In this document: piece by piece, positions 9,277-14,066 of the stretch | How positions within the stretch are numbered: position 1 is the stretch's first letter | Layout of the letters: the number at the start of each line of letters is the position of its first letter | DNA from: Fimbriiglobus ruber | Lineage (GTDB): Bacteria > Planctomycetota > Planctomycetia > Gemmatales > Gemmataceae | DNA length: 64,000 nucleotides | Assembly: GCF_002197845.1 (NCBI RefSeq) | Contig: NZ_NIDE01000009.1 | Location: 1 to 64,000, forward strand | Reading direction: 5' to 3' | Translations under genes and position numbers: made by a program | The notes under the pieces: generated by a model | Seen by the model: the letters and a program-made list of their open reading frames with translations, nothing else | Databases searched by the model: none | What the model was told of the DNA's origin: nothing

Positions 9277-10875
9277 CTACGCTTTTTTCACCCCCGCGGC
9301 GCCGGCTTCGACCACGAACGCAGCCTTCTCAACGGCAGGTGCCCCCGGCTTGGTCACGTCCGCGACCACCACGTATTCACTCCGCCAGGATTTGGGGGTG
9401 ACGACGCAGCGGACGTACCCGCGTTGGCGGTCGTAGAACTTCACGCAGGGGTTTTCCGCCAGGATGGAGTCGTGGTTCTTCGGCTCCACCGGTCCGTTGC
9501 CACCCGTGGTGATCGACGTTCCCACGAACTCGGTCGCGACGACCGGGGCTTCGGCTTTCCGGTCGTCGACCCGCAGGTCGTTCACCCAGTTCGAGTGAAT
9601 GTCGCCGGACAGGATGACCGGGTTCGGCACCTTTCGGTCTGCCAGGAACTGGACGAGCTTCATCCGCTCGTGGGCGTACCCCGGCCACTGGTCCATCGAG
9701 TACTTCTTCGGCTCGCCCGCGGCGGTATCGACCATGCCCATCATCACCTGCTGGGCGAGGACGTTCCAGGTCGCGGGCGAGCGCAGCAGCGCCCCTTTCA
9801 ACCACCCGGCTTGTTCTGCCCCAAGGATAGTGTTCTTGGGGTTGAGTGCGTCGTCGTTTAACTCGGCCGGCTTGTCGCCGTTCGGTTGGTCGGTCCGGTA
9901 CTGGCGGGTGTCGAGTACCTGGAACTCGGCCAGTCGGCCGTAAGGCAGCGTGCGATAGATTTTCATATTCGGCCCCTGCGGGACCGACTTCCGGCGGAGC
10001 GGCATCATCTCGTAATACGCCTGATAAGCGTTAGCCCGAATTTCGAGGAACGCGGCGGGATCGACGCCCTTCCGTTCCGAGATGTCGTTGGCGTAGTTGT
10101 TTTCGAATTCGTGGTCGTCCCACGTCACGACCCACGGACAACGGGCGTGCATCACTTGTAGGAGGCGGTCGGTTCGGTACTGGGCGTGGCGGGCGCGGTA
10201 ATCTTCGAGGCTGGCCAGTTTCTTCCCGTGGTGCTTGCGGACGAGTTTGTCCCGTCCGGCGTACTCGTAGATGTAGTCGCCGAGGTGGAACACGAGGTCG
10301 AGGTCGTCCTTGGCCATGTGTTCGTAGGCGGTGAACAACCCCTGCTCCCAGTGCTGACAGGAGGCAAAAGCGAGCCGCAGCTTTTCCGGGATGCTGGCCC
10401 GCTCGGGCGTCGTCCGGGTGCGGCCGACCGGGCTGGTGGCGTCGCCGGTTCGGAATCGGTAGAAGTACCAGTGGTCCGGCTTGAGCCCTTCGACTTCGAC
10501 GTGAACCGAGTGGGCGAGTTGCGGCGTCGCGACGGCCGTGCCATGGCGAACGACGTTCTTCATCCCTTCATCGTCGGCGACTTCCCATGTCACTTCGAGG
10601 TTTTCGCGGGGCATGCCGCCGCCGTCTACCAGCGGGTTCGGGGCGAGCCGGGTCCACAGAACCACACCCGTTTCGGTCGGCTCGCCGGACGCCACCCCGA
10701 GGGTAAATGGGTCGCCAGCGAGCGGAGCCCGGCGGAGGACGCGGCCCTCAACGCGCAGGTCCAGCGACGGGATCGCGGCCAACGCGGCTCCGTAAGCAAG
10801 AAACAATCGGCGGGAAACGCCGCCTTCGGAACGGACGGCGGCCCGTAAGTTCGACAGGTCGAGCATGGCGTTCAT
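9277..10875 (-). CDS. phoD: PhoD-family alkaline phosphatase/phosphodiesterase
   Basis: About 532 residues. A twin-arginine signal (SRRLFLAYGAALAAIPSL) is followed by a PhoD N-terminal beta domain (FTLGVASGEPTETGVVLWTR) and a metallophosphatase domain: FASCQHWEQGLF, DLVFHLGDYIYEY, WVVTWDDHEFENNYAN, VILSGDIHSNWVND. These cover the metal-binding residues of the Ca2+/Fe3+ PhoD site. It hydrolyses phosphodiesters or monoesters outside the cytoplasm for phosphate acquisition. I chose ATG 10875 (MNAMLDL) since sequence further upstream is not signal-like; a start nine bases later is possible. Monocistronic between convergent or distant neighbours. No Pho box identified. Confidence 0.9.
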   Translation of the reverse strand: MNAMLDLSNLRAAVRSEGGVSRRLFLAYGAALAAIPSLDLRVEGRVLRRAPLAGDPFTLGVASGEPTETGVVLWTRLAPNPLVDGGGMPRENLEVTWEVADDEGMKNVVRHGTAVATPQLAHSVHVEVEGLKPDHWYFYRFRTGDATSPVGRTRTTPERASIPEKLRLAFASCQHWEQGLFTAYEHMAKDDLDLVFHLGDYIYEYAGRDKLVRKHHGKKLASLEDYRARHAQYRTDRLLQVMHARCPWVVTWDDHEFENNYANDISERKGVDPAAFLEIRANAYQAYYEMMPLRRKSVPQGPNMKIYRTLPYGRLAEFQVLDTRQYRTDQPNGDKPAELNDDALNPKNTILGAEQAGWLKGALLRSPATWNVLAQQVMMGMVDTAAGEPKKYSMDQWPGYAHERMKLVQFLADRKVPNPVILSGDIHSNWVNDLRVDDRKAEAPVVATEFVGTSITTGGNGPVEPKNHDSILAENPCVKFYDRQRGYVRCVVTPKSWRSEYVVVADVTKPGAPAVEKAAFVVEAGAAGVKKA

Positions 10876-11343
10876 CTCGGTCAAGATGCGGTGGAGTGCG
10901 CGAGTGATGTCAGCAGTGGGGATGCGGGTTACTGTATTTCGACGCCGCGAAACGGTCGAGAAGATCGTGTGAAGGCAGGAGAGTTCGGACGTTCTGGTCG
11001 AGTGAGCCCGTCGGCAATTGCGGTGGATGGCGCAAGAGAACCAAAATCTTAAAAACCGTTTTAGTAGTATTGCCGCATTTTCAGGGATTATCGGCGTATT
11101 CCCATACAAATTAAGGTTTTGCGAACCGCTTCGAGTGGTCAGAATTAGGCAGATGTAGTCGGGATTTAGCCTCGGTTGGCACCCATAAGTTCGGCTATGG
11201 TTCGGCAAACTTATCGCCATTTTGAGCCGATCTCGCGAGTTCATCGCCGTAGTATTCCGGCTCTCTTACCCTCAACTCTGTGCTTCTTTCGAGTAGACCC
11301 AGTTCGCATGCTTTCCACGATTTACCGTGCCCAGTGCAATCCA
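10876..11343. other. AT-richer intergenic region
   Basis: Lies upstream of phoD and downstream of the three-gene operon. Contains A/T tracts near 11035-11110, but no gene, clear terminator or repeat was found. Confidence 0.5.
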
Positions 11344-11877
11344 TCAGTCGACCACGCGATGAGGTTCTAATTTGTGAGAGACAGGTGCCTTTTCACGAAT
11401 AGGAATTTTTTGATTTGGTTTAACAATTGGATCCATCACTTGAAGCAAAGCCAACCGCCATTTTAAGTGGATGTCTTCGGGCAATGCTTCGGACAATTTG
11501 ATGTGTTCACCGTTGTTGTAGACTCGCACCTCTGTATGAGGGTAGTCCTTTTCAAGAGGATCGTGAGTAGGGGTGAACGTGAACTTATAGACCCCCAATT
11601 GCCAATACTGGGGCGGGATATCCTCTACCCGGAAAGCGAGAATGCCCCAATCTTCAAAATAGCGGTTGTTCAGCACATCAAAACGCACCCACTCCGCGTG
11701 TCCGTATTTACTGCGCCCAACTGACATGTCAGGAAGCTCGACCGCTTCGGGGCCAGGTCGATCAGCCGGATCTTCCCACATCCAAATTGGAATCCTGCGG
11801 AAAAGACTTTCGTCGGGATTAAAGTATTGATCAGGACGGCGATCTTTTGTCCTCATTTCATCGGGCGGTTTGCTCAT
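11344..11877 (-). CDS. Hypothetical protein, third gene of a compact three-gene operon
   Basis: 177 residues, soluble, no signal or membrane segment. Notable stretches are YFNPDESLFRRIPIWMWED, ELPDMSVGRSKYGHAEWVRF, WGILAFRVEDIPP and FTPTHDPLEKDYPHTEVRVY. I recall similar 'SVNRSKYS...' proteins in other bacteria but cannot name a family. Its start overlaps the preceding gene by 20 bp, indicating translational coupling. The operon has noticeably lower GC and different codon use from its surroundings, which points to horizontal acquisition. Function unknown. Confidence 0.7.
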   Translation of the reverse strand: MSKPPDEMRTKDRRPDQYFNPDESLFRRIPIWMWEDPADRPGPEAVELPDMSVGRSKYGHAEWVRFDVLNNRYFEDWGILAFRVEDIPPQYWQLGVYKFTFTPTHDPLEKDYPHTEVRVYNNGEHIKLSEALPEDIHLKWRLALLQVMDPIVKPNQKIPIREKAPVSHKLEPHRVVD

Positions 11878-12682
11878 GGAGATACTTCTCGACCATGCTA
11901 AGTATCTCGGCGTAGCCCTTCCTGCCCTTGGTCACTTTGACGACCTCGGGATCTGAGCTACTGCCGATAAAAGCAGCATGCACATTATCCGTATTTCGGA
12001 ACTCAATGTACACCGACCGTGAGTCTCTGCGGAAGGTAAACCCCACTCCACCAATCACTGCCGGATTAAGCTTGGACAGTTCTATGCCTTCTTCGCGAAC
12101 CGTGTTGAGGAATTCGGCGGCGGCCAGTAGAGCCCCTTTTGATGGCGGTTCGGCGCGGTAGCTATCCCATCCCTTTTCAAGGCTCGCGAACCCCTCTAGG
12201 CGGGCCGTCCACTTATCAACGGGACCTGCCGTGAATGAAGCAAGCGTCACGGGGCCGAAACGCTTAAGTAGCTTAACAGCCTTTTGAAAGGTGGCAATCT
12301 GCGCATCAATGAAGCCGAAGGCAATTTCAGGGGTACGAGAAGCTTGGTCCAAAAGGCAACATGTTGTAGGCACCGATGTGGCAGCCTTTACCGCCCGCCG
12401 AATCAAATCAAGAGGATCTCTTGGTTCAGCAGCCTGCTTGGCCGGTGCGCGGGCACCATAATAGCCCCCAGCGACTAACGTCGGGATCGGTTGAATTTCG
12501 GTCGTCCACTCCGTCAGATCACGGTATGCACGAAAGCTGTTAACGTAAGTATCTTTTTCTGCGGGAAATTTTACCGCCGCGCAGTAGGATTCAGCGGGTA
12601 GTCCGGGATCATAACCGAGAAACTGTCGCAGGTCGCCCTTTTTGGGTGAAATCGCAGGATGCGTTAAACGGAGAGTATTCAT
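11858..12682 (-). CDS. Hypothetical protein with a C-terminal 'GWDSY' domain, operon gene 2
   Basis: 274 residues. The first 140 residues are unrecognised. The C-terminal part contains LEGFASLEKGWDSYRAEPPS, then ALLAAAEFLNTVRE, then GGVGFTFRRDSRSVYIEFR. This resembles a short recurrent domain (WD-x-Y-x-A-x-PPS ... A-x-x-FL ... GG-x-x-x-W/F ... IEF) that I know from scattered accessory genes, without an assigned function. It overlaps gene 1 by 4 bp (ATGA) and gene 3 by 20 bp. Soluble; no catalytic motif visible. Conserved coupling suggests that the three products act together. Confidence 0.7.
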   Translation of the reverse strand: MNTLRLTHPAISPKKGDLRQFLGYDPGLPAESYCAAVKFPAEKDTYVNSFRAYRDLTEWTTEIQPIPTLVAGGYYGARAPAKQAAEPRDPLDLIRRAVKAATSVPTTCCLLDQASRTPEIAFGFIDAQIATFQKAVKLLKRFGPVTLASFTAGPVDKWTARLEGFASLEKGWDSYRAEPPSKGALLAAAEFLNTVREEGIELSKLNPAVIGGVGFTFRRDSRSVYIEFRNTDNVHAAFIGSSSDPEVVKVTKGRKGYAEILSMVEKYLHEQTAR

Positions 12683-13344
12683 GATGACTGACCTAATCCA
12701 GCTGCCGTGAGGGTCTGAACAGCCTCATTTCGGACAATATCCCATTCCGAAAACCGTCTCGCTGCTTCCTTAGCTGCTTCCTGGTCCTGCAAAAAATCAG
12801 AGTGAAAGTTGAAACCGAACTGAATCCGGTCGACCTTCTCCCCACCTGGAAGTTCGATGCTAACCGGCTTAATGTCCACTTTCATCCTGAAGGGACCGAA
12901 GTCTTTACTTAAGTACGTTCCGAATCTTGCGTTTGGATCACTAAATCTTTCAAAAATCCCGTCCTGCTTGCCAGCAAAAAGATTCCGCGTGACGCTCGGC
13001 ACCTCTTCGTCATTAACCGCCAGATGCCAGTTAAAGTTCAACCCAACAGAGCGGTAGGGTACGTGCGGCAGTTTTCCTACCAAAGTTCCTAGTTTGTCTT
13101 CTATGAGCTTCTGTTGCCGTTCAGGAAGTACGTTAGGGATGAACTGCAATTGTTCTGGCAACACCGCCAGGACGAATTCGTCTGTTATGACCTGAACAAA
13201 ATTCTCCGCGAAAATCGAATTTGCTCTCACAGTTCCGTCGGCATCAAGAATTCCATTCTTGGCAAGCCATACTTGAGATAGGACGCTCGGGTTAAACTGT
13301 CGAGCAAGCAACACGACGACTGGCGGGTTTTCGATCAAGTTCAT
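12679..13344 (-). CDS. Hypothetical protein, first gene of the three-gene operon
   Basis: 221 residues, soluble. Begins MNLIENPPVVVLLARQFNPS and continues with ENFVQVITDEFVLAVLPEQL, VGLNFNWHLAV and FGFNFHSDF. Its length, the N-terminal 'NPP(V/I)V' opening and a closing helical segment faintly recall TIGR04255-type proteins, but I would not assign it. GAGG lies 6 bp upstream of the ATG. Being promoter-proximal and overlapping gene 2 by 4 bp, it starts the operon. AT-richer than neighbours. No enzymatic motif seen; a binding or sensor role is only a guess. Confidence 0.7.
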   Translation of the reverse strand: MNLIENPPVVVLLARQFNPSVLSQVWLAKNGILDADGTVRANSIFAENFVQVITDEFVLAVLPEQLQFIPNVLPERQQKLIEDKLGTLVGKLPHVPYRSVGLNFNWHLAVNDEEVPSVTRNLFAGKQDGIFERFSDPNARFGTYLSKDFGPFRMKVDIKPVSIELPGGEKVDRIQFGFNFHSDFLQDQEAAKEAARRFSEWDIVRNEAVQTLTAAGLGQSS

Positions 13345-14066
13345 GTGGGCCTCGCTCCGCGGCTGCGTTCTGCGGCGCGTTTCATGTCCCAGTAGCCAAA
13401 AGCCTACCGTAATTTAAAAGCTGCCTAAATAAAAAAAATGCACAGCCAGCACAAGATGGAAATGATAACTGAATTCTAGGGAAGTCAAGGCCCATTGGCA
13501 ACATAGCGAGCCGCAAAGTATTTCTAGACAACAATTTATCACGCATTTTTTGCAACCGTCTACGATCAATCGCCCATTTGTATTTTGCAATTGAAGTCTT
13601 CCTCAAGGTTATCCCTGCTCTCGCGCAGCCGTCGGTCGGTCGGGGGTTTCGGGGGGTAAAGGACCACTCCCGCGCTTCACGGGTACAAAGCGGTCCGGAC
13701 CCGAAAAGCATGAACGAACGCGGCGAGCATGCTCCTATTCGCTCTGATGGGCGGGTGCCATCTCGATTTGCTTGCGCGGGCGATTCGGATGGGTTCCGTG
13801 ACGGGCGATGACATTTTCACCCCTGAGCAGAGCAATGGACGAAAAGCTCGGCGGGACTCAAAGAAGCCGTCGTCAAGATGGGCTACCCATCGCATCGGGG
13901 AGTTACTCGGTCAGGATTCAAACTCAGGCAAAGACCACCTCGGTTCGGTGGGTGCCATTCTGCGTCCGGTGGAAGAAAATGTTTCGATTTCCTTGTGACC
14001 ATCACTTGGTTGCGTCGATAGAGGAAAGGATTGCGCGCTGACAGTTCCCTCGCAGAGAGAATAAAC
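13345..14066. other. Intergenic region, no gene recognised
   Basis: About 720 bp between the divergent operon and the transglutaminase-like gene. The part near 13380-13600 is AT-rich like the operon; GC rises after 13620. ORFs present look non-coding. A promoter for the operon presumably lies at the left end. Confidence 0.5.

Follow-up and report, generated by a model that had tools for sequence, protein, structure and literature searches.

A three-gene module with an exchangeable first gene and a predicted ADP-ribosyltransferase-like last product in Fimbriiglobus ruber and distantly related bacteria

Among the closest described systems, CmdTAC of E. coli has the named order toxin-antitoxin-SecB-like chaperone. 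The two reports on it describe that competition from a phage capsid protein deprives the antitoxin of the chaperone, whereupon ClpP removes the antitoxin and the ADP-ribosyltransferase (ART) toxin acts (PMC11618068, PMC9519451). The PADLOC candidate PDC-M32 is hypothetical, listed in prophages and composed of two named parts, M32A and M32B (PMC12429752). For ARTs, the catalytic triads R-S-E and H-Y-E are given, and for KptA the residue set H-H-V, in PMC8946771. The NCBIfam family TIGR04255 has no function named and its proteins went unnamed in the literature searched; no description of the three-gene set reported below was found there either, the literature being a limited collection that included part of PMC11514479.

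The window analysed here, a stretch of 64,000 nucleotides from the F. ruber genome, carries on its minus strand three overlapping genes. Gene 1 (slot A, P0001, window-type A; 12679..13344) encodes 221 aa without a named family, gene 2 (B, P0002, family alignment A8; 11858..12682) encodes 274 aa and is the proposed antitoxin or partner, and gene 3 (C, P0003; 11344..11877) encodes 177 aa, the putative ART-fold effector according to its structure model. Genes 1 and 2 overlap by 4 bp (12679-12682) and genes 2 and 3 by 20 bp (11858-11877); the lengths and overlaps of the preliminary description were verified, the genes running 13344-12679, 12682-11858 and 11877-11344. The distinct base composition that it had claimed was equally evident: GC content is 0.48, 0.54 and 0.49 in genes 1, 2 and 3 versus 0.63-0.66 in the four flanking genes measured, and GC3 is 0.51, 0.53 and 0.49 versus 0.83-0.91. 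The flanks are, as had been described, AT-rich and gene-free, with a GC content of 0.53 in the gap on the gene 1 side (13345-14030) and 0.53 on the gene 3 side (11245-11343), or 0.51 over 10873-11343 if the PhoD-like gene has a later start. The listed start of that ORF (9277-11244) is probably about 350 bp too early, since the alignments of its relatives begin only at residue 117-127. A promoter-like match (10/12) was found 5′ of gene 1 at 13473..13501 on the minus strand, where two such sites against 2.1 expected are no excess over chance. Gene 3 has a single match in its own genome (12.36 Mb, 20 contigs; E 10). By reading, the neighbours encode a PhoD-like phosphatase, an LpxL-like acyltransferase, a transglutaminase-like protein and GroEL, all housekeeping, and no defence gene was seen adjoining this copy. 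An empty-site search gave no PhoD match in two genus mates. The PhoD homologue loci of five relatives (L096-L101, to approximately 1.5 kb on either side) matched none of the other window genes of 5-22 kb, so the flanks are unshared and a clean empty site is absent. No convincing repeats marking possible element ends were found.

Gene 2 was unmatched in Pfam, NCBIfam and PHROGs. Its GWDSY domain (residues 152-266; 11885..12229, minus strand) matched positions 256-368 of the 375 of PADLOC PDC-M32A (E 9e-9), and the recurrence of the GWDSY...IEF stretch, asserted from the window alone, was found in relatives. Gene 2 does not cover the full-length PDC-M32A profile of about 375 positions and lacks the N-terminal two thirds of M32A; in L005, a full-length PDC-M32A protein, the GWDSY domain is preceded by a longer N-terminal part. 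The other half of the candidate is touched by the C-type protein of L008, which matched PDC-M32B weakly (E 0.0018), whereas gene 3 matched no PADLOC family at E 10, PDC-M32B included, and the window set has the additional gene A. With CmdTAC the likeness lies in a three-gene module, an ART-type effector (here predicted from a model), a middle gene without known domain and a further component, here proposed as sensor or stabiliser. The two differ in that the ART-like gene stands last here, gene 1 has no SecB match and the residue set on the catalytic strands is another.

When gene 3 alone was used as query, 4 of 294 Planctomycetota genomes were matched, and a profile of four gene 3 sequences matched 8 of 392, its own genome being counted in both. 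The order A-B-C was present in all 8 of the 8 Planctomycetota genomes matched by gene 3; in L070 (= L017) and L074 (= L004) B was assigned from its position and a partial pattern, the GWDSY-domain profile being unmatched. The scan of a collection of 84,980 species genomes yielded at least five loci, a floor because the patterns came from three sequences only. Two were the known L003 and L002. The three new ones all have the order A-B-C and come from a Coleofasciculus MAG (cyanobacterium), in which the gene C frame is broken, a Planctomycetaceae MAG and a Deltaproteobacteria MAG. In the phylum to which the Coleofasciculus MAG belongs, 8 of 339 genomes were matched by the B profile, and in that of the Deltaproteobacteria MAG 9 of 345, with the starting genome counted in each, and a PDC-M32A search matched 8 of 149 Planctomycetota genomes including the own genome and that of L003. 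Overall, relatives of the module were recorded in Cyanobacteria, Deltaproteobacteria, Bacteroidota, Actinomycetota and viral contigs, and the spread is sporadic.

A further 26 loci were located through A or B, with no use of gene C (L050-L065, L066-L069, L026, L027, L079-L082), and gene C was found 3′ of B in 24 of the 25 that could be assessed, in three of them by eye only. L060, which reaches a contig edge, was excluded, and L027 has no gene C. Eight C genes (L050-L052, L055, L057-L059, L066) were recognised by profile with E no higher than 1e-7. The profile match in L054 had E 0.0086, and L053 is a near twin of L054. In L026 and L067-L069 gene C had been an eye-chosen seed of that profile (the frame is broken in L069), in L056, L061 and L063-L065 it is of group C4, tied in through profile-profile comparison, in L079 and L080 it was recognised through alignment, and in L062, L081 and L082 by eye. 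No A or C gene was recognised in L005 and L006, two loci with full-length PDC-M32A, and all locus counts leave them out. Measured from longest-ORF starts, the distance between A and B was −70 to +23 bp (31 loci) and that between B and C −74 to +21 bp (30 loci). The order holds at about 20-35% identity across several phyla. A-B-C is a real conserved set; the co-occurrence that the preliminary description had proposed to check was found in other genomes, and the identical three-gene order in other phyla is more than chance.

Gene 3 was unmatched in Pfam, NCBIfam and PHROGs, its profile was unmatched among PDB sequences, and sequence searches of solved structures yielded nothing credible. By profile comparison the C proteins are one superfamily: hhalign joined group C1, to which the window protein belongs, with C2 (97.9%, E 6e-13) and C2 with C4 (90.7%, E 1e-6), with no direct link between C1 and C4. 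The C alignment comprised 32 members with a mean pairwise identity of 21%, of which 28 do not exceed 60% identity. It omits the broken genes of L022 and L069, L060 because its contig ends, L027, which lacks C, and L081 as too diverged. Ser52 (codon 11722..11724, minus strand, as are the codons below) and His114 (11536..11538) are the sole invariant columns over the 32 proteins, and both are kept within each group aligned separately. Position 27 (11797..11799) is Arg in 24 of 32, comprising all 18 proteins of C2 and C4 and 6 of 14 in C1. Of the 32, 30 have Glu or Asp at position 23, 29 have Leu at position 25 and 29 have Pro at position 107. Glu116 (11530..11532), which completes an HxE, is a subfamily feature mostly absent outside C1 (C1 9/14, C2 1/13, C4 0/5). 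The gene 3 pattern pointed out in the preliminary description recurs in relatives as SV(G/N)RSKY...(Y)xHxE. The statement there that nothing catalytic is seen was not supported, in view of the enzyme-like invariant Ser52 and His114, the mostly present Arg27 and a model nearest to ART-fold enzymes.

The AlphaFold2 model of gene 3 reached pLDDT 81.7 and pTM 0.73 from an alignment of 7 sequences only, and four other gene 3 models reached pLDDT 60-74. Foldseek returned nothing for the gene 3 model at E 1e-3; its best matches were lipocalins and similar, and one rifampin ADP-ribosyltransferase ranked 13th (E 0.94). VIA, run over the best 1000 chains from Foldseek, placed the model nearest to Tpt1/KptA (best Z 5.8, rmsd 3.6-3.8 over 92-101 residues, 10% identity), where Z below 8 may, by the tool's own warning, reflect merely a common arrangement. 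All ten rows at Z 4.9-5.8 were read as Tpt1/KptA, seven by title and presumably also 1wfx, 9lda and 9ld3, from organism or entry series. Every one of the 17 rows with a Z of at least 3.1 was counted as ART-fold, 10 being titled Tpt1/KptA or ADP-ribosyltransferase; 9lda and 9ld3 were assumed to belong from their entry series, and 1wfx, 2o0q, 7zhl, 1s21 and 6b12 are chains that we take to be of the ART fold. The first row counted as unrelated followed at Z 3.0. In the predicted structure Arg27 lies on strand 1, Ser52 on strand 2, and His114 and Glu116 on strand 5, His114 at its start. The R-S-E or H-Y-E residues of ARTs sit on the corresponding first, second and fifth strands. The gene 3 product is thus predicted, at modest scores, to be nearest to ART-fold enzymes, Tpt1/KptA among them, from which it differs by the low identity, the empty profile comparison and other residues on the catalytic strands.

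We give even weight for and against a reading in which the set is a mobile toxin-antitoxin-like module, with C as ART-fold effector, B as antitoxin and A as exchangeable sensor or stabiliser. Several points on C weigh against its ART part, including the empty Foldseek search, VIA scores below 8 and the one model from 7 sequences, with all five models at pLDDT 60-82. To these are added the missing direct link of C1 to C4, the loss of Arg27 in 8 of 14 C1 proteins and the R-S-E Glu mostly missing outside C1, which is not decisive because KptA itself deviates from the triads. Nor did hhalign join C to KptA, represented by 5 sequences, or to RES; with a single sequence on the RES side and no link between KptA and RES, both of them ARTs, this test is powerless. 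C might instead differ in fold and activity or serve as a binding protein, within a trio that is a stress or regulatory operon with no toxin action. This would suit the Foldseek result, the profile without a PDB match and the Pfam and NCBIfam scans of C proteins, in which no ART family was matched. We consider this unlikely given the coherent VIA list of diverse ART chains, the two invariant polar residues on predicted strands and the mobile, sporadic spread (8/392, 8/339 and 9/345 genomes, starting genomes included).

Slot A is exchangeable, being filled by different protein families. Gene 1 itself was unmatched in Pfam, its weak matches being NF002175 in NCBIfam (E 0.17) and phrog_13433 in PHROGs (E 0.0078). 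It did not match TIGR04255 at E 10 (curated cut-off 30 bits) or in profile comparison, showed no similarity to the DUF3467-like group described below, and SecB in Pfam at E 10 was unmatched by gene 1 and by six other A proteins scanned. In the tally of 37 loci (35 tabulated together with L070 and L074), an A gene stood directly upstream of B in 33, often overlapping it, and was of at least six types. The TIGR04255 type was found in 17 loci: by NCBIfam in L066-L068 (= L007-L009), by annotation in L082, by tblastn in L079-L081, by profile in L055, as profile seeds and by alignment in L023, L071 and L073, and in L052, L056, L060 and L063-L065 through the match of the subgroup containing L055 to the other TIGR04255 members (hhalign 96.4%, E 1.3e-9). 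DUF3467-like proteins of approximately 130 aa, so called on a weak DUF3467 match (E 0.074), occupy the slot in 7 loci, L057 by profile (E 2.7e-49) and the remaining six as seeds; among these are L075 and L076, with C proteins close to the window's. The window type was found in 4 loci, the window, L061 (profile E 8.5e-5) and, by eye at 18-21% identity, L072 and L062. L058 and L059 have a type of their own (2/37), L053 and L054 a 100-aa protein (2/37), and L026 a DUF4209 protein (1/37), a domain assigned to the HEPN superfamily in PMC3710099. No recognisable A was present in L050, L051 and L069 (3/37), and L027 (1/37) has no A. Apart from the two TIGR04255 groups, hhalign found no link among the slot A types. 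For the TIGR04255 protein of L079, a weak model (pLDDT 67) gave an RNA polymerase III complex chain (E 3.6e-4) as best Foldseek match, a TBP entry (4.5e-3) and, by VIA, phosphagen kinases (Z up to 8.4); all three were set aside.

The set is in consequence less constant than the preliminary description implied, with B and C constant and the slot of gene 1 exchangeable. B and C may form the functional pair, a two-gene toxin-antitoxin or enzyme-regulator, to which A would be optional and without a shared role; the three B-C loci lacking a recognisable A, the six or more types of A and the two named parts of PDC-M32 all agree with this. We judge it unlikely nonetheless, as A is so regularly upstream of B and TIGR04255 recurs.

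In L027 (2473-7249), on a plasmid of Acetobacter persici, a gene with two GWDSY-type domains is directly followed by a gene annotated as the ClpXP specificity factor SspB, and another SspB-annotated gene lies approximately 3 kb upstream; a link of the B domain to proteolysis is possible from this context.

Some copies stand in mobile surroundings. Integrases adjoin L079 and L081 by reading, and Phage_integrase was matched by 2 of 97 neighbour proteins; on a plasmid of Mycobacterium paragordonae, L082 has a MobF relaxase on one side and conjugation genes on the other. In searches by tblastn, B of L009 matched two plasmids and no phages, and the TIGR04255 protein of L079 one plasmid and no phages. 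Plasmids were unmatched by gene 3, gene 1 and the L064 C protein, and plasmids and phages both by the L003 C protein. A TIGR04255 search matched three viral contigs; searches with two C profiles (A4 and A10) and with the DUF3467-like one (A11) matched none. In one viral contig a tyrosine-integrase-like gene is directly followed by the module (L079:4458-7776). Low GC3, the integrase and conjugation neighbours and the sporadic spread over phyla support a set that moves horizontally as a three-gene module in distantly related bacteria, in line with the transfer proposed at the outset. That three unrelated low-GC genes of housekeeping or metabolic role merely travel together as ordinary cargo is very improbable: none of the three is in a named family and the window neighbours were read as PhoD-like, transglutaminase-like and groEL, but the A-B-C order kept at such low identity over several phyla, with its sporadic distribution, already contradicts it. 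An assignment to housekeeping families, which would have spoken against the preliminary description, was likewise not found, Pfam being unmatched by all three genes.

From 34 loci, 109 neighbouring proteins were listed and 97 scanned, and PADLOC at 1e-10 matched 111 families among these. Among the matches listed (25 of the 111 families) were type I restriction enzymes, GajB/UvrD-like proteins and PDC-S05 with two proteins each, and HmaB, HmaC, type IIG, type III methyltransferase, type II methyltransferase, PDC-S01 and HEC-01A with one each; these counts, made without a control set, are descriptive and not enrichment. A type I enzyme adjoins the module in L065, a type IIG in L059 and a UvrD-type protein in L061, and in L071 (6-6645) approximately 140 bp separate a TIGR04255-B-C module from the upstream HmaB- and HmaC-type genes, which belong to the Hma defence system. 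Five of ten neighbour proteins checked singly (L080, two of L066, L073 and L069) were unmatched at 1e-20, and many of the remaining neighbours are metabolic genes. The proximity to defence genes that had been proposed as a check is seen for some copies, as restriction-modification or Hma, and, by reading, not in the window, with its housekeeping neighbours. On a Hymenobacter plasmid (L026:3911-6707) the DUF4209 gene precedes B and C, and a HipA-type toxin gene and a helix-turn-helix gene lie just downstream of the module. In L053 (1974-8172) and L054 (136-4418), two members of the cyanobacterial set, the module lies between Proton_antipo_M, of the NADH dehydrogenase type, and ChpXY, of CO2 hydration, which is odd for a mobile module.

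The proposed workings of the toxin-antitoxin-like module may be depicted as follows, by analogy with CmdTAC, from which the roles of C as effector, B as antitoxin and A as sensor or stabiliser are taken. C would be a small effector with an ART-like fold and a candidate R-S-H(xE) active site, and B, its constant upstream partner with the GWDSY domain, would keep it inactive. A would steady the B-C complex or detect infection or stress; a sensor would fit the way in which A is exchanged while B and C stay constant. Titration of A would leave C active, and growth or phage production would halt. The window module would then work like a toxin-antitoxin-chaperone system such as CmdTAC. Against this stand gene 1, which falls outside TIGR04255, the DUF3467-like group and Pfam with its SecB family, the housekeeping neighbours of the window and defence neighbours counted without a control. 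TIGR04255 fills the slot of gene 1 in many loci and the DUF3467-like proteins in others, although gene 1 resembles neither. More tentatively, the loci might make up a widespread abortive-infection family of an antitoxin B and an ART-fold toxin C with a novel R-S-H type of active site, in which a non-SecB protein replaces the chaperone as swappable sensor A, of TIGR04255, DUF3467-like, window or DUF4209/HEPN type; the toxin-antitoxin-sensor design would thereby be a general one. The earlier suggestion of a conflict, stress or immunity module thus holds as to a transferred three-gene module that recurs elsewhere and is related to the PDC-M32 candidate, while toxicity, neutralisation, sensing and a role in defence are suggested by analogy.

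Given the predicted likeness of C to toxin-type ADP-ribosylating enzymes, the set could represent a bacterial self-defence switch not yet described. The two invariant residues make the module directly testable by mutation. If the reading is true, it would give a first role to the TIGR04255 proteins and the GWDSY domain and would bear on the PADLOC candidate PDC-M32, and, with sensors exchanged on an unchanging effector core, the module would offer a natural test bed for how bacteria alter the triggers of suicidal defence.
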